A stretch of DNA of 55,832 nucleotides. Source: Verrucomicrobiota bacterium (lineage in GTDB: Bacteria; Verrucomicrobiota; Verrucomicrobiia; Limisphaerales; UBA9464). Shown in pieces: positions 42,798 through 55,832 of this stretch. How positions within the stretch are numbered: the stretch's first letter is position 1; every line of letters begins with the position of its first letter. Under the pieces are notes generated by a model, which worked only from the letters and a program-made list of their open reading frames with translations, ran no database searches and was not told where the DNA came from. The stretch spans positions 1-55,832 of the forward strand of contig CANIZL010000037.1 in the NCBI GenBank assembly GCA_947471985.1, read 5' to 3'. The translations under genes were made by a program, and so were the position numbers.

Positions 42798-43319
42798 ATG
42801 GCCACAGAGCTACCCGAAACGCAAGGAACCTCGCCCGAAACGGCGAACGTTCCGGCGCGGTCGGGCAGCGGACGGGCGTTGTTCGCGGGGCGTTGCTCGC
42901 ACACGGTCGATAGCCAGGGTCGGGTGCAGTTCCCCTCCCGCTGGAAGGTCCGCGCCGGGGATACCGAGTTGCTGGGAATCGCCGTGGAGCATCGGGGGAC
43001 GCAGGACCAGTTCATCCTCGTGCTGAATTGGGATCAATTCGACCAGTTCACAGCGGGGGTATTGAGCGGCTCCTTTACGGACGTCGAGGCCCTCGCCCAT
43101 CGGCACTATGTGGCCGAACGCGTCATGCCGATCGAACTGGACGCCCAGGGACGCTTTTTCATTCCGGCGGAGCTGCGCAAGGTGATTGGCGTCCGGAAGG
43201 AAGTTGAGCTCGTGGGCTCGATTGATCGCTTCGAAATTTGGGCGCCGGAAACCTACGCCGCCGCGCGTGTGAAGGAGAAGGATTTTCTCCGAATGGCAGG
43301 TAAGAACACCATCCTATGA
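42798..43319 (+). CDS. mraZ: MraZ, dcw-cluster transcriptional regulator
   Basis: This 173-residue protein has two MraZ/AbrB-like repeats: SHTVDSQGRVQFPSRWK (about residues 34-50) and ELDAQGRFFIPAELRKVIGV (about 114-133), followed by SIDRFEIWAPETY. A polar N-terminal extension of roughly 25 residues precedes the first repeat. MraZ binds the promoter region of its own operon and is the usual first gene of the dcw cluster, as here. The stop overlaps the start of the next gene by 4 bases. Confidence 0.95.
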   Translation: MATELPETQGTSPETANVPARSGSGRALFAGRCSHTVDSQGRVQFPSRWKVRAGDTELLGIAVEHRGTQDQFILVLNWDQFDQFTAGVLSGSFTDVEALAHRHYVAERVMPIELDAQGRFFIPAELRKVIGVRKEVELVGSIDRFEIWAPETYAAARVKEKDFLRMAGKNTIL

Positions 43320-43909: not shown

Positions 43910-44887
43910 GTGCCCGCCTTTACCCATATCCCGGTGATGCTTCCGGAGGTGCTGAACGCCCTCCAGCCGCGGCCCGGGCAGGTATTCCTGGATGGCACCC
44001 TGGGTGGAGCCGGACACAGCTGCGCCTTGCTGGAACGGATTCTGCCGGACGGTTTCCTGTGGGGGTGCGACCAAGATGGCGACGCCTTGAAGGCGGCCGC
44101 TGAGCGACTGGGGGCAGTTCCCGGCTCGGCCGGACGATGGGCGACGAAAGAGATGAATTTTGCGGGGCTGGCCACCTGGGTGCCAGCCGGCAGTTGTGAC
44201 GGTGTACTGCTCGATCTCGGGGTGTCGAGCCACCAATTGGATACCCCGGAACGCGGTTTTTCTTTTCAACATGACGGGCCGTTGGACATGCGGATGTCAC
44301 ACCGGACCCCGATGACGGCGGCGGATGTGGTAAACGGCTGGGCGGCGGGGGAGCTGGCCCGGGTGTTTTGGGAATTGGGCGACGAACCGGAGGGACGCCG
44401 GATCGCGCGGGCCATTGAACGGGAACGGGCGGTGAGACGATTCGAGACAACGCAGCAATTGGCGGACGCCGTGGCAAAAGTATGCCCGCGCGGCGGGCGC
44501 AAGTCCCATCCTGCCACCCGGGTTTTTCAGGCGCTCCGGCTGGTCGTGAATGACGAGATGGGCGTGCTGGATCAGGGACTCCTGGGCGCCTTCCAGTGCC
44601 TGCGTCCCGGCGGTCGGCTCGCCGTGCTGACCTTCCACTCCCTCGAAGACCGCAAGGTCAAGGCGTTCATGCGCGAGACCGCCCGCGAATACCTGCTCCC
44701 CCCGGGACAACCGGACGATCCGTTGCTCCGTATCCCCTGCACTCCGGCCGCCACCCTGGTCACCCGACGATCCGTCCAACCCAGCGACGCAGAGATCGCC
44801 GCCAACCCCCGCTGCCGCAGCGCCCAACTCCGGGTGCTCGAACGACGTCCCCAACCCCTGACCTCCCCCACTCCCCATGCGCGCTAA
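43910..44887 (+). CDS. rsmH: 16S rRNA (cytosine-1402-N4)-methyltransferase RsmH
   Basis: This 325-residue protein starts with GTG at 43910; a nearby ATG at 43903 is out of frame. Visible RsmH motifs are HIPVMLPEVL at the N-terminus, SAM-binding DGTLGGAGHS, LLDLGVSSHQLD, RGFSFQHDGPLDMRM, RVFQALRLVVNDE and AVLTFHSLEDR. It methylates C1402 in the ribosomal decoding centre. This is its standard place in the dcw cluster. The stop overlaps ftsL by 11 bases. Confidence 0.96.
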   Translation: MPAFTHIPVMLPEVLNALQPRPGQVFLDGTLGGAGHSCALLERILPDGFLWGCDQDGDALKAAAERLGAVPGSAGRWATKEMNFAGLATWVPAGSCDGVLLDLGVSSHQLDTPERGFSFQHDGPLDMRMSHRTPMTAADVVNGWAAGELARVFWELGDEPEGRRIARAIERERAVRRFETTQQLADAVAKVCPRGGRKSHPATRVFQALRLVVNDEMGVLDQGLLGAFQCLRPGGRLAVLTFHSLEDRKVKAFMRETAREYLLPPGQPDDPLLRIPCTPAATLVTRRSVQPSDAEIAANPRCRSAQLRVLERRPQPLTSPTPHAR

Positions 44888-45311
44888 TCGACGACGTGAC
44901 GGCGGCGCCGGCCTGGCCCGCGCCTGCAAAGCCGCCCTGATGTGCAGCCTCCTGGCCGCCGCCGGCATCGGCTACGTGCGCCAGACCATGGACCAGGATC
45001 GCCTCGGCAAAATGGAGAACGAACAGGAGGCCCGCCTGACGGAACTTCGCGAAGAAATGCGCCGTCAAACCGCCATTCGCTCCATGCTGTCCTCGCCGGA
45101 AGCCATTCAGGAGCGGGTCCGCCAGCACCGTTTGAACCTCGTTCTGGCCACGCCCCAACAGCGGTTGTTTCTCACCGTTCCCTCCTCCTTTACCCCGCCC
45201 CCGGCGCTGTCGGGCACCTTCCCTCCCGCCGCTCCCCAGGCCGGCGTAACCGCCGAAGCGGCGGCCAATCCGTCCCGGGTGCCCACTGCCCTGGCGCAAC
45301 TCCCGCACTGA
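44877..45311 (+). CDS. ftsL: FtsL-like cell division protein
   Basis: This 144-residue protein has a basic N-terminus, one membrane helix (about residues 15-34), then a charged coiled-coil (DRLGKMENEQEARLTELREE and following) to about residue 85, and a Pro/Ala-rich tail. The sequence is too variable for motif recognition. Size, topology and position between rsmH and ftsI identify it as the FtsL equivalent, a division scaffold that works with FtsB/FtsQ. The tail of about 50 residues after the coiled coil is longer than in E. coli FtsL. Confidence 0.75.
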   Translation: MRANRRRDGGAGLARACKAALMCSLLAAAGIGYVRQTMDQDRLGKMENEQEARLTELREEMRRQTAIRSMLSSPEAIQERVRQHRLNLVLATPQQRLFLTVPSSFTPPPALSGTFPPAAPQAGVTAEAAANPSRVPTALAQLPH

Positions 45312-45330: not shown

Positions 45331-47658
45331 ATGCACACCGCGTCCACTCACCGCCGATTGAGCGCCTTTGCGGCGGCTTTCGCCATGGGCTTCGCCGTGC
45401 TCGCCGTCCGCCTGGTCTACGTCCACGTCATCCAACCCCACAACCCGGAAGCAGGCGAGGATACGGTCGACCACATCGCGCGCCCCGCCCGCCGCGGAAA
45501 TCTGCTGAGCGCGGATGAAAAAGTCCTCGCCTGGTCCGAATCGCTGGTCAGCATCCAGGTGGATCCCGTCGTGCTCGGCACCAATCTGAGCCGGATCCGG
45601 ACGGTCGCCGAACTCATTGCCCAGGAATTCGGCAATGCCACCAACCAGGTCACCGCCGGATCCCTGGTACCCCTGCTCACGCCCCGCACGGAAACCCGCC
45701 GCTGGAGCACCGTCACCACCAACCGATTCGAGCCCATCCTCGATGCCCGTAAGCGTCCCCGTCTGGATACCGCCGGCCAACCGCTGGTGCGCCCGGTGTT
45801 GGTTACCAACTGGAATTCCAACCCCAATTTCACCAATCGGGCGGTGGTCCTTTTCTCCAATGTACCGCCAGCGGACTGGAATCGTTTCCGCAGCAATCTG
45901 CTGAAACTCAAATTTCCCGAACAACCCATCCTGCTCGGGGCCCTCACCAACCTGCGGCACTCCCGGCCTTCCGTGGTGCGGCGCCTGGCGGCCGCCGTGG
46001 GCCGTGAGGCCGGCCCGGTGCGCGAATGGCAGGCGCAGAATCGCGAACTCAACGAGGCCCTGAAGCTGCAGCGATCGGAGCTCAACGAGATCCGTCGCAC
46101 TGCGCTGGTCGCGCAGCCGGTCGAAGTGCGCCTGTACCCGCATGGCTCACTCGCCTCCCATGTGCTGGGTTACACCACCAACGACGACCGCCACCCGCGC
46201 CTTTCCCTGCCCAATCCCATCCTCGGTGCCACCGGCGTCGAACACATGCTGGACGAGGAACTCACCGGTTCCCCCGGGCTATTGGTCACCCACGCAGCCA
46301 AAGGGCGGGAACTGGTCCGTCTCCGCGAACGCGACGTGCCCGCCCAGGATGGACTTTCCGCCCAGCTGACCATCGATACCCGAATCCAGGCCGTCCTCGA
46401 GGACGCGCTGGATAAAGGGTACGCGGAGATCAGCCCCAAAGCGCTGATTGCCATCGTGGTGCGACCCGCCACCGGCGAGATCCTCGCGATGGGCAATCGG
46501 CCCACCTACGACCCCAACCAACTGCGTCTGGCGAGCGTGGACGCCCGCTGGAACCTCGCCATCACCGCGCCCACCGAGCCCGGCTCCACCTTTAAAATCT
46601 GCACCTACGCCACCGCCATCGAACTGGGCAAACTGTCCCTGGACCAGATGATCAACTGCGAAGGCGGGCACTGGAATCCCGGCGTGGGCCGGCCGGTAAA
46701 TGACGTGGAAGGCCACGGCATGGGCCTGGTCGCCGCGGAAGATGCCTTTGCCAAATCGTCCAATGTGGCCGCCGCCAAGATCGGCTTGGGAATGTCCACC
46801 AATGAATTCGTCCACGGGATGGAGCAACTCGGCTTCCTGCACCGCAGCGGCATCTTTTACCGGCGGCGCATTGGCGGCCAGGGAGTGGAGACCGACGATT
46901 GGGGCGGCGAGAATTCCGGCGCAATTCCCGGGCTGATGCGGGATGGTCGAATTGGCACCGAATTGCAGGGACGTCTGAGCTTTGGTTACGGACTGTACGT
47001 CACCCCGCTCCAGACCGCCATGGCCGTCGCTGCCCTGGCCAACAACGGCACCCTGATGAAGCCGCTGCTGGTTCGCGAACTCCGCACCCCGGAGGGACGC
47101 GTGGTCAAGCGGTTCGAACCGACCGTCGCCCGGCAGGCCGTTTCCGCCGCCACGGCCCGGGAGATGCTCCGCGCCATGCGCCATGTCGTCACGTCCGGCA
47201 CCGGCAAGTTGACCGCACTGGCCGACTACGAAGTGGCGGGCAAAACCGGCACCGCCCATAAGCAGTTCAACGGCCAGCAATCCAACGACAAATACATTTC
47301 CACCTTCGTCGGTGTGCTTCCCGTCGAGAAACCCGAACTGTGCATCCTGGTCCTCGCCGACGAACCCCTGAAACGCGGCGCCACCTCCCATTTCGGCGGC
47401 AAGGCCTGCGGCCCCATCTTCACGAACATTGCCGTCCGCGCCGCGGGAATCCTGGCCCTCCGGCCGTCGCCCCCACCGGAGCCGACCGAAGGCGGCAAGC
47501 AGGCTGATGCGGATCCGCGGGCCTCCAAGGACGAGCGATCCACCGCCGGCAATCGCGACCTCGCCATCGATCGCGAGGTCACCTCCCGCCCCGCCGGCCG
47601 CTCCGGACTTCCGCCCACCGCCGCCGTGCCCCGCGAGGCGCGGTACCTCAAGCGATGA
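45331..47658 (+). CDS. ftsI: septal peptidoglycan transpeptidase FtsI/PBP3-like
   Basis: This 775-residue class B penicillin-binding protein has a membrane anchor at about 10-30, then a pedestal domain with RPARRGNLL and a large N-terminal region. The transpeptidase domain carries all three active-site motifs: S419-T-F-K422 (EPGSTFKI), SSN at 476-478 and KTG at 638-640 (VAGKTGTAHK). About 120-150 residues in the N-terminal region (roughly 110-260), with a charged helix near 225-255, exceed the usual FtsI size of about 590. The C-terminal tail of about 60 residues is polar. The stop overlaps the MurE-like gene by 4 bases. Confidence 0.95.
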   Translation: MHTASTHRRLSAFAAAFAMGFAVLAVRLVYVHVIQPHNPEAGEDTVDHIARPARRGNLLSADEKVLAWSESLVSIQVDPVVLGTNLSRIRTVAELIAQEFGNATNQVTAGSLVPLLTPRTETRRWSTVTTNRFEPILDARKRPRLDTAGQPLVRPVLVTNWNSNPNFTNRAVVLFSNVPPADWNRFRSNLLKLKFPEQPILLGALTNLRHSRPSVVRRLAAAVGREAGPVREWQAQNRELNEALKLQRSELNEIRRTALVAQPVEVRLYPHGSLASHVLGYTTNDDRHPRLSLPNPILGATGVEHMLDEELTGSPGLLVTHAAKGRELVRLRERDVPAQDGLSAQLTIDTRIQAVLEDALDKGYAEISPKALIAIVVRPATGEILAMGNRPTYDPNQLRLASVDARWNLAITAPTEPGSTFKICTYATAIELGKLSLDQMINCEGGHWNPGVGRPVNDVEGHGMGLVAAEDAFAKSSNVAAAKIGLGMSTNEFVHGMEQLGFLHRSGIFYRRRIGGQGVETDDWGGENSGAIPGLMRDGRIGTELQGRLSFGYGLYVTPLQTAMAVAALANNGTLMKPLLVRELRTPEGRVVKRFEPTVARQAVSAATAREMLRAMRHVVTSGTGKLTALADYEVAGKTGTAHKQFNGQQSNDKYISTFVGVLPVEKPELCILVLADEPLKRGATSHFGGKACGPIFTNIAVRAAGILALRPSPPPEPTEGGKQADADPRASKDERSTAGNRDLAIDREVTSRPAGRSGLPPTAAVPREARYLKR

Positions 47659-48983
47659 AACTTTCCACGCTCATCCAATACCTGCCGGGGGCCCGCACGC
47701 GGATGTTCCCCCGGGGACGGGCGGCCGCCACGCACGATGTTTGCGGCGTGACCCCGAACCTGCGCGAAGTGCGCCCGGGAATGGCGTATTTCGCCCTGCC
47801 GGAAGATTCCGAAGCAAATCCGCACGCCGCCCATACCGCCTACCAGCGGGGCGCGTCACTCGTGGTTTGCGGCCCGGATCTCGCCCTCCCGGCCCGGGCT
47901 CCGGCCATCCGGGTCGCCGATCCCCACGCCGCCCTGGCCACCGCCGCCGCCGCCTTCCGCGAATTCCCCGCGAATCGACTCCGCCTGCTCGCCGTCACCG
48001 GCGACGAAGCCGGCCGGCGCGGCGTGGCGCACATCGTCGCCAACATCCTCGGCCTCCTGGGCATTCCCACCGGATTGCTCACCCAAAACGGGTTCAACGT
48101 CGGCGGCCGTCACGGCTCCACCGGACTCAACCAATTGGATGCCGCCGAACTCCAGGCCCTGTTGCGGCAACAGGTGAACGCCGGGGGCGGGTGCGTGGTC
48201 ACGGAATTCGATTCAGCGGAGTTTCCCGAGGGATTGAATGGTCTCCAGTTTGCCCGACAGATCATCGTCAGCCCGCCGGCCATCTTCCGCCACACCTGTC
48301 CCCTGCTCTTGAACCCCCGCGGTTCCCGCACCGAGATCCGCGCCTTCTCACCCGCCAAAGCTGCAACCACGCCCCTGATCGGTCGTCGCTCTCTGCTCGC
48401 TCTGGATCGGTCCTGGGAGGACGTGGTGGCCGTGGCGGAATCCTTCGGCCACACCTCGGCCGCCGTCGGCAACACCCTACCCGTCCTCAGCCCGGTCCCC
48501 GGCTGGCTCGAACCGGTCCAGTGCGGTCAACCTTTTGGCGTTTTTGTGGATGGGGCCACCAATGCCGTAGCGCTGACCGCCGCCCTGCGGGACGCCCGGG
48601 AACTGACCCGCGGACGCCTGCACGTCGTCTGCGGCGCCCGCGCCACCGCCTCCGACACCGACAATGCGGCACTGGGCAACGCCGCCCTGGCCCTCGCGGA
48701 TCACGTCCACGTCACCTCGGACAACCCGCATCGACGTCCTTTCCAGGAGCTGGTCGTGGCCTTGATCGGCTCGGAGACGTCCCCGCAGACAACCCTCCAA
48801 AGTGATCGTGCCGCGGCCATCCGTGGCGCCATCCGCAGCGCCCGGGCGGGCGACGTCGTGGTGATTGCCGGCAAGGCGGATGCCCCCGTGCAGGAACTCG
48901 GTCACGTCATCATTCCGTTTGATGACCGGGTGGTGGCCACCCAGGTGCTCAATTCCCGCGGCTACGTGGGCGGGGGCGAATGA
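47655..48983 (+). CDS. murE: MurE-like Mur-ligase homologue with degenerate active site
   Basis: This 442-residue protein occupies the murE position between ftsI and murF, overlapping both by 4 bases. Global similarity to MurE is clear: an N-terminal LREVRPGMAYFALP and RLRLLAVTG, an intermediate central domain, and a C-terminal region containing TSDNP, DRAAAIRGAIRSARAGDVVV and PFDDRVVATQVLNSRGY. The catalytic elements are lost. The P-loop, normally TGTNGKTT, reads TGDEAGRRG (115-123) with one extra residue and no Lys. The usual EVSSHAL is EFDSAEF (184-190). The D-Y-A-H motif is D-G-A-T (299-302). The Arg of DNPR is His359. GKGHE is GKADA (406-410). As read, it should not bind ATP normally or form the UDP-MurNAc-tripeptide. 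It is probably a structural or regulatory pseudoenzyme, with a working MurE elsewhere. Confidence 0.88.
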   Translation: MKLSTLIQYLPGARTRMFPRGRAAATHDVCGVTPNLREVRPGMAYFALPEDSEANPHAAHTAYQRGASLVVCGPDLALPARAPAIRVADPHAALATAAAAFREFPANRLRLLAVTGDEAGRRGVAHIVANILGLLGIPTGLLTQNGFNVGGRHGSTGLNQLDAAELQALLRQQVNAGGGCVVTEFDSAEFPEGLNGLQFARQIIVSPPAIFRHTCPLLLNPRGSRTEIRAFSPAKAATTPLIGRRSLLALDRSWEDVVAVAESFGHTSAAVGNTLPVLSPVPGWLEPVQCGQPFGVFVDGATNAVALTAALRDARELTRGRLHVVCGARATASDTDNAALGNAALALADHVHVTSDNPHRRPFQELVVALIGSETSPQTTLQSDRAAAIRGAIRSARAGDVVVIAGKADAPVQELGHVIIPFDDRVVATQVLNSRGYVGGGE

Positions 48984-50422
48984 GCATGGACCCCCAACCG
49001 CTCAATTGGTTGGCCGCAGCCTGCGGCATAACCCTCGATCCCTCCACCGGCACCACCATGGTGCGGCGGGTGGTGACCGATTCGCGCGTCGCCGGTCCCG
49101 GCGACCTCTTTGTCGCCCTGCGGGGCGAGCGCTTCGACGGACATGATTTTCTCTCCGACGTCGCCGCACGCGGCGTTGCGGGAGTACTCTTTGACGCCAA
49201 ACGCCCCGCACACCTTTCCAAAGGTGTGGTGGCGCTGGAGGTGGCGGACCCGCGGGTTGCCTACGGCCAACTCGCGGGTCGATACCGCCGTCGTTTCACC
49301 CTGCCCGTTATTTGTGTGGGCGGCTCGAACGGCAAAACCACCACCAAGGAGTTGATCGCAGCGGTACTTGCCCCCGGTTTTTCCACCCTCAAGAGCGAGG
49401 CCAGCTTCAACAACGATATCGGAGTCCCGGCCACGTTGCTGCAAATGGAGTCCCACCATGGAGCTGCCGTACTGGAAGCCGGCACCAATCATCCAGGCGA
49501 ACTCGCCCCCTTGGTCCGCTTGATCGCTCCGCGCATCGGAGTCCTCACGAGTTTCGGCCGCGAACACCTCGAATTTTTCGGTGATCTGGCGGGAGTGGTT
49601 CAAGAGGAAGGCACCTTGGCCGAGGAACTCCCCCCCGGTGGCACCCTCGTATTGGACGGCGATTCCCCGTTTACCGACGGCGTGGCCCAACGCACCCAAC
49701 CCGGCGTGAACGTTGTCCGGATTGGCCACGGCCCGCAGAATCACTGGCGGGTGCACTCGGTCAGTCAGGATTGGGACGGACTTACCTTCCGGGTCGACTC
49801 CGTGCCCCATCCCGATTGGTCGGGAGTCTGGCGGGTGCCCCTGCCGGGTGAACACTCGGCCCAAAATGCCACCTACGCGCTGGCCGTCGCCGCCGAACTG
49901 GGGATCAACCCCGCCGCCGCCCGCACGGCGCTGGCCGCTTTCCATCCACCGAAGCAACGGCTGGCCCTGACCCGGGTCGGCGAGCTGCGGATCCTGGATG
50001 ACACTTACAACGCCAATGCCGACTCCATGTTGGCGGCGTTACGAACGCTTTCCGACCTCCCGTGCTCGGGCCGTCGTGTGGCGGTGCTCGGGGACATGGG
50101 CGAACTGGGCCCTATGACCGAGACCGCGCACGTGGAGGTCGGCCAAGCGTCGGCACAGGGCATGGACGCCCTGTTCGCCATCGGCCAATGGGCCACCGCC
50201 ACCGCCGCGGCCGCGCAGTCGGCTGGACTGGGCCGGGCTCACGCCTTCGCGTCCGTGGAGTCCGCGCTGCCGGCTCTTCGGGAATATCTTCAACCAGGCG
50301 ACACCCTCCTGGTGAAGGCATCCCGTTCCGCCCGGCTGGAACAAGTCATCCGCAGCCTGCAGGAAACCGCCACCGCGAACCCACCGGTGAACGCCTCCAC
50401 AGCCGCTTCCGTCGCCGCCTGA
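48980..50422 (+). CDS. murF: UDP-N-acetylmuramoyl-tripeptide--D-alanyl-D-alanine ligase MurF
   Basis: This 480-residue protein has an intact Mur ligase: N-terminal VTDSRVAGPGDLFVALRGER, P-loop GSNGKTT at 115-121 followed by TKE, EAGTNHPGEL, SFGREHLEFFG, the C-terminal DDTYNANADSM signature, LGDMGELG and a VKASRSARLE end. It adds D-Ala-D-Ala to the UDP-MurNAc tripeptide. It serves as an internal control: its catalytic residues are conserved while those of the neighbouring MurE-like protein are not. The ATGA overlap with that gene indicates coupled translation. Confidence 0.96.
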   Translation: MSMDPQPLNWLAAACGITLDPSTGTTMVRRVVTDSRVAGPGDLFVALRGERFDGHDFLSDVAARGVAGVLFDAKRPAHLSKGVVALEVADPRVAYGQLAGRYRRRFTLPVICVGGSNGKTTTKELIAAVLAPGFSTLKSEASFNNDIGVPATLLQMESHHGAAVLEAGTNHPGELAPLVRLIAPRIGVLTSFGREHLEFFGDLAGVVQEEGTLAEELPPGGTLVLDGDSPFTDGVAQRTQPGVNVVRIGHGPQNHWRVHSVSQDWDGLTFRVDSVPHPDWSGVWRVPLPGEHSAQNATYALAVAAELGINPAAARTALAAFHPPKQRLALTRVGELRILDDTYNANADSMLAALRTLSDLPCSGRRVAVLGDMGELGPMTETAHVEVGQASAQGMDALFAIGQWATATAAAAQSAGLGRAHAFASVESALPALREYLQPGDTLLVKASRSARLEQVIRSLQETATANPPVNASTAASVAA

Positions 50423-50425
50423 CTC

Positions 50426-51595
50426 ATGCTTTACCCGCTCAGCCAACTCTTAAAATCGGCCCCCTGGACGCTGCTCCAGTACGTCACCGTCCGGGCCGGT
50501 GGCGCGCTGCTCACCGCCCTGCTGCTGAGTTGGCTCCTGGGGCCCCGTCTCATCGCGTGGCTGCGCGAATTGAAATTTCGCCAGGATTATCGGCCCAAGG
50601 ACGCCTCGACCCAGACGCCGGACGCCGCCGCCGATCTCGCCAAACGCGGCACCCCCACCATGGGCGGCCTGCTCATCGTGCTCGTGCTCGACGTCAGCGT
50701 TCTGTTATGGGCGCGGTGGAACTCCCTCGTCATCCTGACCCTGCTGGTACTGGTCGTTTTCGCCGGTCTCGGATTCTATGACGATTGGATGAAGGTCTCG
50801 CGGCAGAATGCCGAGGGCGCCAAGTCGCACCTGAAATTGATCGTCCAAGGCATCGTGGCCGCGGTGGTGGTGGGTTACCTGGGGTACCTGCCCTCCACCC
50901 GCGCCCTGGTCACCGATCTCAACCTGCCGTTCCTGCCCGCCAAACTGGCCATGATCCATGACCTGGATTTCCTGGGCCGGAAGGACAGCCTCATTGGAAC
51001 GAGTCTCGTGGCCGTGATCGCTCTCGGGATTTCGATGTTGACCATCGTGGGCAGTTCCAATGCGGTGAATCTGACCGACGGCATGGATGGTCTCGCCATC
51101 GGTTGCACGCTCATCTGCACCGCCGCCTTTCTCCCCCTGACGTACGTGGCCGGCAACAAAGTGCTGGCGGCCTACCTGCTGGTTCCCCGGGTTCCCGGGG
51201 CGGAGGAATTGACGGTGATCTGCGCCGCTCTGGTTGGGGCCTCGCTGGGGTTCCTGTGGTTCAACTGCCATCCGGCCCAGGTCTTCATGGGCGACACCGG
51301 ATCCCTGGCCCTCGGCGGCGCCCTGGGGGTGATTGCCGTGGCGATTCACCAACCGTTCACGCTGCTGATCGCGGGCGCCGTTTTTGTGGCGGAAGCCCTG
51401 TCCGTGATCCTCCAGGTCAGCTGGTTCAAGTACACGCGGCGCAAATACGGAACGGGCCGCCGCATCTTCCTGATGAGCCCGCTGCACCACCATTTCCGAA
51501 AAAAGGGCTGGGCGGAATCACAGATCGTCACCCGCTTTTATATCGCCGCCATCCTGTGCGCCGTGCTCGCCGTCAGCACCCTGAAAATCCGCTGA
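50426..51595 (+). CDS. mraY: phospho-N-acetylmuramoyl-pentapeptide transferase MraY
   Basis: This 389-residue polytopic membrane protein (about 10 helices) carries the MraY signatures GTPTMGGLLI, FYDDWMK (aspartate pair), NLTDGMDGLA, NCHPAQVFMGDTGSLALGG and MSPLHHHF. It transfers phospho-MurNAc-pentapeptide to undecaprenyl phosphate, making lipid I. It begins 3 bases after murF, as in most dcw clusters. Its stop forms TGATG with a short open frame downstream. Confidence 0.97.
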   Translation: MLYPLSQLLKSAPWTLLQYVTVRAGGALLTALLLSWLLGPRLIAWLRELKFRQDYRPKDASTQTPDAAADLAKRGTPTMGGLLIVLVLDVSVLLWARWNSLVILTLLVLVVFAGLGFYDDWMKVSRQNAEGAKSHLKLIVQGIVAAVVVGYLGYLPSTRALVTDLNLPFLPAKLAMIHDLDFLGRKDSLIGTSLVAVIALGISMLTIVGSSNAVNLTDGMDGLAIGCTLICTAAFLPLTYVAGNKVLAAYLLVPRVPGAEELTVICAALVGASLGFLWFNCHPAQVFMGDTGSLALGGALGVIAVAIHQPFTLLIAGAVFVAEALSVILQVSWFKYTRRKYGTGRRIFLMSPLHHHFRKKGWAESQIVTRFYIAAILCAVLAVSTLKIR

Positions 51596-51938: not shown

Positions 51939-52871
51939 ATGAGTACTCCCAACCCATTGGCCCCGCAGGGCTCGCTGCTCGAGCAGCAAGCCAAAGGACG
52001 TTCCACCTTCCACGTCATCTCCTTCATCGGCGCCGTCCATGTCATGCTGCTCTGCGGCATCCTCTGGACCGCCTGCAGCAAGGATGAAAAGCCGAAGGTC
52101 GAAACCCCGAACACCGTCGGCAGCACCGATCCCTACGCGGCACCGCCCGCCGATCCGTCCCTGGGCGGCTTGCCCGGCACCGGCGGCCTGCCTCCCGCGC
52201 CTTCGTCCAATTCGCCCAGTGCGTCCCCGGTCACGCCACCCACCACCATCGGCGTCCCGACGCAGCCGCCGACTCCCGCAGGATCGGGACTCGGGGCCGG
52301 CGGTGCCGGCGGCGGTAGTGGTCCGGCCGTGACGCCGAACCTGCCGCCCAGCAACCCGGTGCCCCCGGTCGGCGGCGGCTCGGGTCCCGAAATCACGCCT
52401 CCCACCCCCGCCAGTCCGGCCGGGGAATACAAGATCGCCAAGGGCGACATCGGGGAGAGCGTCGCCAAAAAGCATGGCGTCAGCATGAAAGCCCTCGCCA
52501 CGGCTAATCCCAGCGTCAACTGGAGCCGGCTCAAGGTCGGTCAATCGATCCAGATCCCGGCGGCCAGCGCGGCCACGGGAACTCCCTCCGCTCCGGCCGG
52601 CACGAGCCCGGACGCCGGAGCCACGTCCGGCACCGTCACCTACGTGGTGAAGGCGGGCGACACCGGCACCAAGATCGCCACCAAACACGGCGTCAAATGG
52701 GCCGAAATCCGCAAGGCGAGCCGCCTGACCAGCGACGCGCTGCATCCGGGACAGAAGTTGACCATTCCCGCCCACGCCGGCGGTGCGGCCGCCGCCTCCG
52801 GAGCCGCTCCCTCGGGTAGCCCCGCGCAACCCTCGGCGACGCCCGTGATTCCCAAAGCGCCGGGCCAGTAA
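51939..52871 (+). CDS. membrane-anchored protein with two LysM domains
   Basis: This 310-residue protein has a cytoplasmic N-terminus of about 25 residues, one membrane helix (about 26-45, FHVISFIGAVHVMLLCGILW), then a Pro/Gly/Ser-rich linker of about 110 residues. Two LysM domains follow at about 165-205 (EYKIAKGDIGESVAKKHGV to VGQSIQIP) and 228-275 (TYVVKAGDTGTKIATKHGV to PGQKLTIP). LysM binds GlcNAc-containing glycans, so it probably tethers the inner membrane to nascent peptidoglycan. A place between mraY and ftsW suggests a role at the division site. A Cys near the end of the helix (TACSK) leaves a lipoprotein possible. Confidence 0.87.
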   Translation: MSTPNPLAPQGSLLEQQAKGRSTFHVISFIGAVHVMLLCGILWTACSKDEKPKVETPNTVGSTDPYAAPPADPSLGGLPGTGGLPPAPSSNSPSASPVTPPTTIGVPTQPPTPAGSGLGAGGAGGGSGPAVTPNLPPSNPVPPVGGGSGPEITPPTPASPAGEYKIAKGDIGESVAKKHGVSMKALATANPSVNWSRLKVGQSIQIPAASAATGTPSAPAGTSPDAGATSGTVTYVVKAGDTGTKIATKHGVKWAEIRKASRLTSDALHPGQKLTIPAHAGGAAAASGAAPSGSPAQPSATPVIPKAPGQ

Positions 52872-53030: not shown

Positions 53031-53113
53031 CGGTTGGTCTGCCTTGATTCAGTCAGCTTCACTCCGTTCCTCCCGCGGAGTTGGCGGTGGTTGCCGGATT
53101 GCCGGCCGTTCGT

Positions 53114-54277
53114 ATGCGCACTGTCACCACGTTTTTGTTGGCCGCGGTTGTGGCCTTGGTCTCGCTCAGCCTGACCATGCTGGCGAGCGCCACGGCCTTG
53201 GATTCCGGAACCAACGCCGACGCTGGCATTCGCAATCAACTGATCGCCACCCTCGTCGGCTTCGTCGGCCTCGGACTGGCCGCTTCCCTCGATTATCGGC
53301 GCACCCGGCGGTTGTCCTGGGTGGTCTACGGCGTGAGTCTGGTACTGCTCGTCCTGGTGCTCACCCCGTTGGGCCACGAAACCAAGGGCGCCCGCCGCTG
53401 GCTCTTCGGCATTCAGCCCAGTGAAGTGGCCAAGCTTTCGCTGATCCTCGCCCTCGCCAGTTACGGAGCCCAACGCCAAAACGTCATCCAGCGATTCTGG
53501 AAGGGCCTCGGGCTGGGTTGCTTGATCGCTCTTCCGATTCTGGCCTTGGTGGCCGCGGAACCCGATCGCGGCACGACCGCCCTGCTGATGTTGGTGACCA
53601 TGATGATCCTGCTGCTCGCCGGCGTCCGCTGGCTGTTCGTGGTGCCGCCCGTCATCATCGGCGTCGCCGCCCTGGGCGCCATGATCTGGGTCAGTCCCAT
53701 GGCCCAATCCCGCTGGAAGGCTTGGTGGGACCCCGACTCCCACAAGGCCACCACCGGTATGCAAGTCCGCAAATCGCTGCAGGCATTTGCTGTTGGGGGC
53801 ATTGAGGGACAGGGTCTGGCCGCCGGCGCCCAGAAGTTCCGCGTTCCCGAAGTCCATACGGATTTCATCCTGCCCGCCGTCGGGGAGGATCTGGGATTGT
53901 TCGGCTCCCTCGGGGTGCTGGCCGCCTATTCCATCATCCTGATCTGCGGGGTGATGATCGCCTTCCGTGCGGCGGATTTGCACGGCTTGCTCCTGGCCGC
54001 CGGCATCACCTTCCTCATCTGCGCCCAGACCACGGTCAATATCGGCGTGGTCACCGCCCTCCTGCCCAACAAGGGCATGCCCCTGCCCTTCGTCAGCCGC
54101 GGCGGATCCAGCATCGCCATTCTCCTCACCCTCGTGGGCATCCTCTTGAGCGTTGCCCGTCAGGCGGGATCCGCCGAGGAATCCGACGCCGCTTCCGAGC
54201 ACTCCGGCCGGTCCCGGAGCCAGAGTCGCAACCGCAACAATCCCTTCGCCAATCCGGATTTCGCCCCGGTGGATTGA
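53114..54277 (+). CDS. ftsW: SEDS-family septal glycosyltransferase FtsW
   Basis: The start is set at ATG 53114, which begins right before the first membrane helix; the open frame has a GTG 33 bases earlier. The protein has 387 residues and about 10 membrane helices. SEDS motifs: TKGARRWLFGIQPSEVAKL, AAEPDRGTTALL, GIEGQGLAAGAQKF, HTDFILPAVGEDLG and LPFVSRGGSS. It polymerises lipid II at the septum with the class B PBP encoded upstream (FtsI). A polar C-terminal tail of about 40 residues follows. Placement next to murG favours FtsW over RodA. Confidence 0.94.
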   Translation: MRTVTTFLLAAVVALVSLSLTMLASATALDSGTNADAGIRNQLIATLVGFVGLGLAASLDYRRTRRLSWVVYGVSLVLLVLVLTPLGHETKGARRWLFGIQPSEVAKLSLILALASYGAQRQNVIQRFWKGLGLGCLIALPILALVAAEPDRGTTALLMLVTMMILLLAGVRWLFVVPPVIIGVAALGAMIWVSPMAQSRWKAWWDPDSHKATTGMQVRKSLQAFAVGGIEGQGLAAGAQKFRVPEVHTDFILPAVGEDLGLFGSLGVLAAYSIILICGVMIAFRAADLHGLLLAAGITFLICAQTTVNIGVVTALLPNKGMPLPFVSRGGSSIAILLTLVGILLSVARQAGSAEESDAASEHSGRSRSQSRNRNNPFANPDFAPVD

Positions 54278-54284
54278 GCCGCCC

Positions 54285-55454
54285 ATGAAGCCCCTCCCAA
54301 CCACCCTCCGTGTGGCCATCGCTTGCGGTGGCACCGGTGGACATTTGTACCCCGGAGTGGCCGTCGGCACCGAACTCGTCGCCCGGGGCGTGGACGTCAC
54401 CCTGCTCGTGTCCCCCAAGGACGTCGATCAACAGGCGATCCGCGGCCTGCGCGATGTGCGCATCATCACCTTGCCGGCCGTGGCCCTGCAGGGCGGCAAT
54501 GTCTCGGAGTTTGTCACCTCCAGCTGGCGCGCCCGGGCGACCGCCAAGCGCCTGTTCGCCGCCCACCCACCCCACGCCGTGCTGGCCATGGGGGGATTCA
54601 CCGCGGCCCCGCCCATTCTCGCCGGAAAATCGTTCGGCGCCGTCACGGCCCTGCACGAATCCAACACCGTCCCCGGACGCGCCAATCGCTGGCTGGCCCA
54701 CGTCGTCGATGAATGCTTCGTCGGTTTTCCCGAGGCCGCCCAGCGTCTCTGGCACCCGCACGTCACCCACACCGGCACGCCCGTCCGTGAGAACTTCATG
54801 GGCGAGATCGATCCCGTCGGCGCCCGAACGTTGTTGGGACTGAAACCCCACGCACCCACGCTCGTGATCATGGGCGGCAGCCAGGGCGCCCGCGGCGTCA
54901 ATCAACTCGTCACTGCCGCCCTGCCCACCTTGGTGAAGTCGATGCCCGGACTGCAGTACCTGCACCTGACCGGCGAGGCCGATATCGACACCGTCCGCGC
55001 CGCCTACGCCACCGTGACCGGCGGTCCGGATCGGCCCCACGCCGTAGTGCGACCGTTCCTAAGCGAAATGGAATTTGCCCTCGCCGCCGCGACGCTGGTC
55101 GTCAGCCGCAGCGGCGCTTCGTCGCTGGCCGAGTTTGCCGCCCGCAGCGTGCCCACCGTCCTGATCCCGCTGCCCACGGCCCAGGACAACCACCAATTCC
55201 ACAATGCCGCCGCCCTCGTCCAAACCGGGGCCGCCGAACTGATCGATCAAAAACAGACCACCCCGGCCGAGTTCGCCACCCGGATCCTGCAACTGTTGCA
55301 GGACGACGGCGCCCGTCAGCGCCTCTCCGAGCAGATCGCCCGCTGGCACATCGCCGACGCCCCGACCCGTATCGCCAACCGACTCGCCGCCCTCCTCGCC
55401 CAGCAGCATCCCCAAGCCCCGATCCTGCCTCCGGCCCCGGCCCCCATCCTCTAA
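54285..55454 (+). CDS. murG: UDP-GlcNAc:lipid I N-acetylglucosaminyltransferase MurG
   Basis: ATG at 54285 gives a 389-residue protein; the longer frame upstream overlaps ftsW and is not needed. GT28 motifs: ACGGTGGHLYPGVAVG at the N-terminus, MGGFTAAPPIL, HESNTVPGRANR, GTPVRENF, MGGSQGARGVNQLV, and the C-terminal donor-binding SRSGASSLAEFAA and PLPTAQDNHQFHNA. It makes lipid II on the cytoplasmic face. It lies 7 bases after ftsW and 1 base before murB. Confidence 0.96.
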   Translation: MKPLPTTLRVAIACGGTGGHLYPGVAVGTELVARGVDVTLLVSPKDVDQQAIRGLRDVRIITLPAVALQGGNVSEFVTSSWRARATAKRLFAAHPPHAVLAMGGFTAAPPILAGKSFGAVTALHESNTVPGRANRWLAHVVDECFVGFPEAAQRLWHPHVTHTGTPVRENFMGEIDPVGARTLLGLKPHAPTLVIMGGSQGARGVNQLVTAALPTLVKSMPGLQYLHLTGEADIDTVRAAYATVTGGPDRPHAVVRPFLSEMEFALAAATLVVSRSGASSLAEFAARSVPTVLIPLPTAQDNHQFHNAAALVQTGAAELIDQKQTTPAEFATRILQLLQDDGARQRLSEQIARWHIADAPTRIANRLAALLAQQHPQAPILPPAPAPIL

Positions 55455-55455
55455 G

Positions 55456-55832
55456 GTGCCCACCGCAATCCCCGTCCCCACACTTTTGTTGAATCTCTCC
55501 CTCGTTCCCCTCAGTGACGCGCAGGCCGCCGAGTGCGATCGGGCACAGGACGTCTCCTGGCTGTTCCGCGATCTCAGCCTGCTCCTGCCGTCCCACACCG
55601 TCCTGCGCCGTGATGAGCCGCTCTCCCGCCGCACCACGCTGCGCGTCGGCGGGCCCGCCGAGATCTACGTCGAGCCGCCCAGCGAAACCGCCCTCGCCAC
55701 GGTGCTCGAAATGTGCGCACTCCGGGGGATTCCGCGGATGATCCTCGGCCGGGGATCGAATCTCCTCGTCCGTGATGGCGGTATCCGGGGCGTGGTGATC
55801 TCCCTCGCCGCCCCGGTTTTCGGCAATATCGA
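55456..55832 (+). CDS. murB: UDP-N-acetylenolpyruvoylglucosamine reductase MurB (partial, runs off right edge)
   Basis: A GTG start at 55456, one base after the murG stop, opens a frame of 125 codons to the window edge. After an N-terminal leader of about 48 residues it matches MurB: LSRRTTLRVGGPAEIYVEP (FAD-binding start), then RMILGRGSNLLVRDGGIRGV, the FAD pyrophosphate-binding loop. The leader is longer than usual, so a downstream start is possible. MurB reduces UDP-GlcNAc-enolpyruvate to UDP-MurNAc. murC, usually between murG and murB, is absent. Confidence 0.9.
   Translation, partial: MPTAIPVPTLLLNLSLVPLSDAQAAECDRAQDVSWLFRDLSLLLPSHTVLRRDEPLSRRTTLRVGGPAEIYVEPPSETALATVLEMCALRGIPRMILGRGSNLLVRDGGIRGVVISLAAPVFGNI

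Follow-up and report, generated by a model that had tools for sequence, protein, structure and literature searches.

How can a bacterium complete its wall peptide when the gene in the murE position no longer encodes a recognizable ligase? This question is raised by a 55,832-nt contig (CANIZL010000037.1 of assembly GCA_947471985.1, the whole of which is called the window here) from a Verrucomicrobiota bacterium of the order Limisphaerales, family UBA9464. In its division and cell wall (dcw) gene cluster, the place of murE between ftsI and murF is taken by a MurE-derived gene, designated murE', whose ATP-binding P-loop has been lost. MurC, MurD and MurE are antibiotic targets and, to our knowledge, are regarded as indispensable and universal wherever peptidoglycan is made. 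Directly supported are the absence of all three ligases in genome searches, the presence of Mpl and of the downstream genes, the loss of catalytic residues from murE', the single clade that murE' forms and the purifying selection on it. The explanation that we favour, at a probability of about 0.55, is that the family has lost MurC, MurD and MurE, that Mpl charges UDP-N-acetylmuramic acid (UDP-MurNAc) with a preformed tripeptide, and that murE' is kept as a non-catalytic partner.

A MurE-derived gene without ligase motifs

As claimed in a preliminary description made from the window alone, murE' was coupled to both neighbours, with one ATGA overlap at the stop of ftsI and another at the start of murF. 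Its frame was intact over 442 codons, and its codon use was similar to that of the adjacent genes, with a third-position GC content (GC3) of 0.797 against 0.753–0.828. Of the Pfam domains, only Mur_ligase_C passed its cut-off on the window protein, with 65.6 bits, and PF08245, the middle domain, was unmatched; on the murE model TIGR01085 the protein scored 158.3 bits, below the cut-off of 257.3. The motifs by which MurE binds UDP-MurNAc-dipeptide, Mg/ATP and the third amino acid were altered throughout the window gene: the P-loop read TGDEAGRRG (canonical TGTNGKTT), FDSAE replaced VSSHAL, DGATN replaced DYAHT, DNPH replaced DNPR, GKADA replaced GKGHE, and the DH segment was deleted.

The window protein was aligned with 28 family homologues, 15 canonical MurE proteins of the order and E. 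coli MurE. The resulting family set of 29 sequences excludes 8 further family murE' homologues, and the 15 references comprised 13 of 20 fetched murE loci (selected by P-loop pattern on one strand) and 2 other loci. A match in genome G005 (P0001, 5.3e-4) fell inside the murF open reading frame (ORF) and was not counted as murE'. The P-loop lysine was missing from 29/29 family sequences, so the change is not local; within the family, this contradicts the suspicion that relatives might have kept the P-loop. The Glu of GKGHE was also absent from all 29, and the DH column was a gap in 28, inside a central-domain deletion of ~60 residues; the stretch from the P-loop to DYAH measured 177–192 residues in the murE' family versus 239–241 in canonical MurE. 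The earlier claim that every other active-site motif is changed was borne out for the window gene but not family-wide, where the Asp of DYAH was retained in 29/29 and DNPR was variable (complete in 13/29, its Arg present in 15/29). As a control, the order's 20 murE loci with the highest scores were read on both strands; all of them kept the P-loop, SSH, DHLD, DYAHT, DNPR and GKGHE. Ligase activity of murE' is unlikely without a P-loop.

An AlphaFold2 model of murE', built from an 11-sequence alignment, had a mean predicted local distance difference test (pLDDT) score of 85.9 and a predicted template modelling (pTM) score of 0.80. Its best matches by VIA-align were E. coli MurE chains (7b53: Z 31.4, root-mean-square deviation 5.1, 410 residues), while Foldseek placed PAP11, a MurE-like subunit of plant plastid RNA polymerase, first and bacterial MurE next. 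By this model murE' is predicted to keep the three-domain MurE fold despite its shortened central domain, in agreement with the preliminary description. murE' thus resembles MurE (TIGR01085; structures 7b53 of E. coli and 2wtz of M. tuberculosis) in gene order, fold and C-terminal domain, but lacks the P-loop, SSH, DH and DYAH motifs, is ~60 residues shorter centrally and falls below the model cut-off. PAP11 offers a parallel as a MurE homologue whose function lies outside wall-peptide ligation; unlike murE' it is a plant protein in a transcription complex, identity is ~20%, and no RNA-polymerase link is evident for murE'. Arabidopsis MurE reportedly does not complement a murE mutant of moss, and its absence is reported to reduce plastid gene expression (PMC12681378).

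The ratio of non-synonymous to synonymous substitution rates (dN/dS) of murE' was 0.06–0.22 in ten close pairs, not all of them independent; the corresponding values were 0.10–0.19 for murF (nine pairs) and 0.05–0.16 for ftsI (ten pairs). In the tree, the 29 murE' sequences formed one clade (support 100/99); long branches led to E. coli MurE, to the window sequence and to three degenerate sequences, and joins between such branches carry a warning from the program. Since murE' forms one clade and shares the central deletion, the simplest reading is that the family lost its ligase motifs once, at an early stage. Degenerate murE genes of other families (L161, L182, L187, L188 and L260) did not group with murE', and on this tree those outside the murE' clade need at least two changes, their long-branch placement being unsure. 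These sequence data support murE' as a MurE-derived pseudoenzyme maintained family-wide, and the earlier view that the gene is maintained rather than decaying was upheld.

Absence of MurC, MurD and MurE in genome, family and order

The host genome (6.38 Mb, 180 contigs, 96% complete) contained three PF08245 domains, belonging to MurF (in the window), Mpl (contig 154) and FolC (contig 44). Genome searches detected no murE, murD or murC elsewhere; in particular, the second intact murE for which the preliminary description had proposed a search was not found. That description had named the lack of another murE, combined with ligase activity of murE', as what would contradict its reading; the first half of this pair is the case, no other murE being present in the genome. 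It had overlooked the absence of MurC and MurD: because these are also gone, what has been lost appears to be a pathway arm rather than a single enzyme.

Mpl of the host (genome G000, contig C154) scored 431 bits on TIGR01081 (cut-off 388.7), and the three family Mpl proteins tested were all over that cut-off. The motifs GTHGKTTT, DEYD-FFDKRSKF and SNGGF--IH matched those of E. coli Mpl in 20/20 family loci read. By this score and these motifs the host protein, the other wall ligase of the genome, is a clear orthologue of Mpl.

Among 50 family genomes, PF08245 was matched exactly three times in 37, fewer times in 9 and more in 4, individual gene identities being assigned for the fetched matches. 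Complete additional genes occurred once in G041 (L104) and twice in G047 (L102 and L103); these were MurF-like paralogues outside the dcw cluster, with 176–185 bits on the murF model (sub-cut-off), and were thereby ruled out as MurC, MurD or MurE. Extra matches in G010 (54% complete) and G023 (80%) were partly fragments and were left unclassified. The family cluster ran mraZ-rsmH-ftsL-ftsI-(murE')-murF-mraY-LysM-ftsW-murG-murB-ddl-ftsQ-ftsA, with neither murD nor murC.

Across a sample of 146 genomes of the order, matches over the cut-off were found for murE in 68, murD in 86, mpl in 129, murF in 133 and glutamate racemase (MurI) in 41. Losses were counted only in MurF-matched genomes, so that a missing dcw contig cannot mimic loss; MurE-minus means no murE match at E 1e-40, and missing Mpl was judged at E 1e-30. 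The 67 MurE-minus genomes had a murD match in 28 and an Mpl match in 61, and glutamate racemase over the cut-off in none (0/67; one sub-cut-off match of 37.6 bits, in G175, was left out of the count). The 66 MurE-plus genomes, at least two of which (G063 and G105) carry a murE that has lost its P-loop, had glutamate racemase in 37 and an Mpl match in 64. Kinship among the genomes was ignored in comparing the two groups. MurC status across the order was taken from the clusters read and the mpl model, no murC-model search being made; the mpl model does detect a canonical MurC (146.6 bits), and a second match to it in the MurE-minus genome G095 was counted, unclassified.

Two sets of clusters were read directly: 40 order loci, of which 36 were picked from genomes that had no murE match, and 80 named loci closest to a MurF alignment, which overlap the family genomes and of which 79 came from metagenome-assembled genome records; the tallies of neither set are frequencies. 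The span from ftsI to ddl was covered by 37/40 order loci: one was complete for murC, murD and murE, 16 had none of these, 13 had only murD, two a murD fragment, three murD with a degenerate murE, one only a canonical murE and one only a degenerate murE. In the 63/80 named loci with the same span, five were complete, four had murD and murE without murC, six murD only, two a murD fragment, nine murE' only and 37 none; murC was missing from 58/63, and 48 of those also lacked full-length murD and canonical murE. In the clusters read, the order presents a patchwork of partial MurC, MurD and MurE losses, the later genes being kept.

Several intermediate states were seen. MurD proteins in clusters without murC and murE differed in the preservation of their motifs, the extremes being L155 (intact) and L153 and L173 (lost). 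Those of L156, L159, L171 and L179, again without murC or murE in the cluster, had a P-loop GTNGKG (Thr lost) and kept DSKATN or DSKSTN, which may reflect relaxed selection or changed function. Remnants of 146–153 codons occupied the murD slot of L175, L180, L229 and L261 and are apparent decay stages. A canonical murE stood without murC and murD in the cluster of L181 (G147), and a full-length murD with a canonical murE but without murC in L218, L219, L249 and L266. Such MurD and MurE proteins may use a substrate other than the MurC product, or murC may lie elsewhere.

The window cluster and its neighbours

The genes of the window cluster are listed in Table 1; ORF starts were set mechanically by script, and some ORFs are over-extended. 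murB lay directly 3' of murG, without an intervening murC. The LysM-domain gene occupied the slot that murD holds in murD-keeping clusters. It was present in the order clusters read across the mraY-ftsW span, and it was ruled out as a murD substitute, as it adjoins murD in the complete relative G144.

In many dcw clusters of Limisphaerales, whether or not murE is present, murF is immediately preceded by a gene of the SIMPL kind (e.g. L079:8859-9593, L092:9510-10262 with PF04402 matched, and L089:6407-7219). This gene co-occurs with canonical murE in L219 and L249, which ruled it out as a murE substitute.

Table 1. Genes of the dcw cluster in the window, in order of position
Gene	Coordinates	Strand	Remarks
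mraZ	42798..43319	+	named by position and sequence reading
rsmH (mraW)	43910..44887	+	named by position and sequence reading
ftsL-like ORF	44877..45311	+	named by position
ftsI	45331..47658	+	penicillin-binding protein (PBP) transpeptidase; STFK, SSN and KTG motifs present
murE'	47655..48983	+	MurE-derived pseudoenzyme (supported), 442 aa, ATG start
murF	48980..50422	+	canonical; 361.9 bits on TIGR01143 (cut-off 288.6); P-loop GGSNGKTT
mraY	50426..51595	+	
LysM-domain gene	51939..52871	+	proline-rich, two LysM domains, between mraY and ftsW
ftsW	53081..54277	+	
murG	54153..55454	+	mechanical ORF start; overlaps ftsW
murB, 5' end	55456..55830	+	cut by contig end; named by position and BLAST in relatives, no family model

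Mpl as a candidate entry point of wall synthesis

MurF requires UDP-MurNAc-tripeptide, and Mpl joins UDP-MurNAc to L-Ala-gamma-D-Glu-meso-diaminopimelate (mDAP). With MurC, MurD and MurE gone, Mpl is the remaining known maker of UDP-MurNAc-tripeptide and hence the candidate for its entry. In the proposed scheme, Mpl would load the ready-made L-Ala-gamma-D-Glu-mDAP onto UDP-MurNAc in one step, MurF would add D-Ala-D-Ala, and MraY, MurG, FtsW and FtsI would proceed as usual. murE' would be the sole survivor of the lost arm, its ligase chemistry having been lost early in the family; probably made together with MurF and FtsI, it would most likely be a binding partner in a MurF/MraY/MurG assembly. 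We infer the main flux through Mpl, and likewise the tripeptide source and the binding role of murE'. If the salvage system was in place before the losses, MurC, MurD and MurE would have become dispensable in whatever sequence, in agreement with the patchwork seen across the order.

The scheme has partial precedents. Mpl is described as loading the whole tripeptide on UDP-MurNAc, in Acinetobacter reusing tripeptide released by ElsL, a cytosolic L,D-carboxypeptidase with orthologues reported in all orders of Verrucomicrobia (PMC8649774). Acinetobacter Mpl recycles beside ordinary synthesis, whereas the host has Mpl with MurC, MurD and MurE absent. Peptidoglycan precursor taken from outside is reported for Tannerella forsythia, a MurNAc auxotroph (PMC5790795), which misses the sugar where the host family misses the peptide arm. 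MurE joined to MurF has precedents in MurE-MurF fusions or complexes (Bordetella; solved complex 8f5d), and the Bordetella fusion is reported to bind MurG (PMC6420597). Both halves of the fusion are active; murE', by contrast, is without catalytic motifs and separately encoded. Its retention beside MurF without ligase motifs suggests, by analogy with these cases and with plant PAP11, a binding role. The functions put forward in the preliminary description, as a scaffold for MurF, MraY or FtsI or as a regulator of precursor flow, are likewise putative.

Several observations weigh against this explanation. Recycling alone cannot feed growth; tripeptide would have to come from an outside or new source, and none was found. 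The importer AmpG (TIGR00901) was unmatched in 6/6 family genomes sampled, so this import route was set aside for them, and it was over the cut-off in 0/146 order genomes; weak AmpG homologues occurred in 27/75 MurE-minus versus 6/71 MurE-plus order genomes (kinship ignored) and were not seen in the host's family. Mpl also occurs in genomes with MurC, MurD and MurE, so its presence alone proves nothing, and no Mpl match was found at E 1e-30 in six MurF-plus, MurE-minus genomes, two of them 92% complete. No neighbour gene of mpl was conserved across the family, and a conserved partner gene there was dropped as a candidate. Glutamate racemase loss is weakened as proof of salvage, 29/66 MurF-plus, MurE-plus genomes being likewise without it. 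A class IV aminotransferase, a possible source of D-Glu, was matched in 142/146 genomes (seven over the Dat cut-off), and D-Glu might thus still be made by an aminotransferase; with a sub-cut-off match near-universal, D-amino-acid transaminase was useless as a discriminator. Full-length MurE or MurD without murC in some clusters is unexplained by a simple one-step bypass.

Two further observations of this kind concern murE' itself. In the three related g7 pairs L094/L107/L108, its dN/dS was 2–4 times that of ftsI. It was also missing from part of the family: ftsI ran to murF without murE' in seven fetched loci (L087, L088, L089, L090, L100, L101 and L105). By these comparisons murE' is under selection where kept, yet dispensable, having been dropped in some lineages; the earlier pseudoenzyme reading, sustained family-wide and by purifying selection, thus does not extend to an indispensable function.

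Of the competing explanations, the one that survives best, though we think it unlikely, is that non-homologous ligases (e.g. ATP-grasp enzymes) replaced MurC, MurD and MurE, that the peptide is still built stepwise on UDP-MurNAc, and that Mpl only recycles. Family genome sizes of 2.5–6.4 Mb and records from bogs, ponds and groundwater suggest free-living cells, the downstream genes are retained, the aminotransferase might supply D-Glu, and the clusters with full-length MurD or MurE and no murC could mean replacement step by step. Three separate replacements would be required, however, glutamate racemase is absent as well (0/67 over the cut-off), and no obvious ligase candidate was seen beside murF, murB or mpl, where the unnamed ORFs are only partly annotated.

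It is distinctly improbable that the remodelled central domain gives murE' a new catalytic activity, e.g. on mDAP or the tripeptide, in place of a scaffold role. Purifying selection comparable in magnitude to that on murF, the DYAH Asp (29/29), the GK of AGK and a complete DNPR in 13/29 would fit such an enzyme; a P-loop lysine absent from 29/29, a DH column gapped in 28/29, the few and scattered invariant central-domain columns of the 11-sequence alignment and the absence of murE' from part of the family speak against it. That the family makes no ordinary peptidoglycan, the remaining mur genes being relics or making a different polymer, has very little to recommend it: mur genes are reported lost elsewhere in the superphylum (Pirellulales, Isosphaerales and Gemmatales; PMC12283558), but family clusters read over a sufficient length show synteny of murF, mraY, murG, ftsW, ftsI, murB, ddl, ftsQ and ftsA, the catalytic motifs of the window FtsI are intact, and dN/dS of murF is 0.10–0.19. 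A local assembly error or an ordinary decaying pseudogene, for which the shrinking remnants in other families of the order (murD fragments of 146–153 aa) might be cited, is hardly credible: the frames are open and the losses shared across 29 genomes, dN/dS lies well under 1 and the sequences form one clade.

Extended from the family to the order, the Mpl explanation becomes more tentative. It is quite possible, though somewhat less likely than not, that much of this almost uncultured order has taken apart the MurC-MurD-MurE arm and makes its wall "peptide first", with free tripeptide loaded whole by Mpl and with murE' as a non-catalytic organiser of MurF and the membrane steps in one family; on that reading the tripeptide would come from scavenging of other bacteria or from an enzyme yet to be identified.

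According to a survey of 2025, conservation of the dcw genes is high in Verrucomicrobiota (PMC12283558), and no published report of this loss of MurC, MurD and MurE was found among titles and abstract openings. Many lineages appear to have lost the three ligases while the later steps persist. The partial states across the order (murD and murE without murC, one of them only, shrunken remnants, none) form a natural series of the dismantling of a core pathway. If Mpl does not supply the tripeptide, unknown peptide ligases remain to be found. If it does, wall synthesis now starts from a recycling enzyme, and wall fragments of neighbouring cells may be a necessity for these bacteria, which would bear on why they are known almost exclusively from metagenomes.

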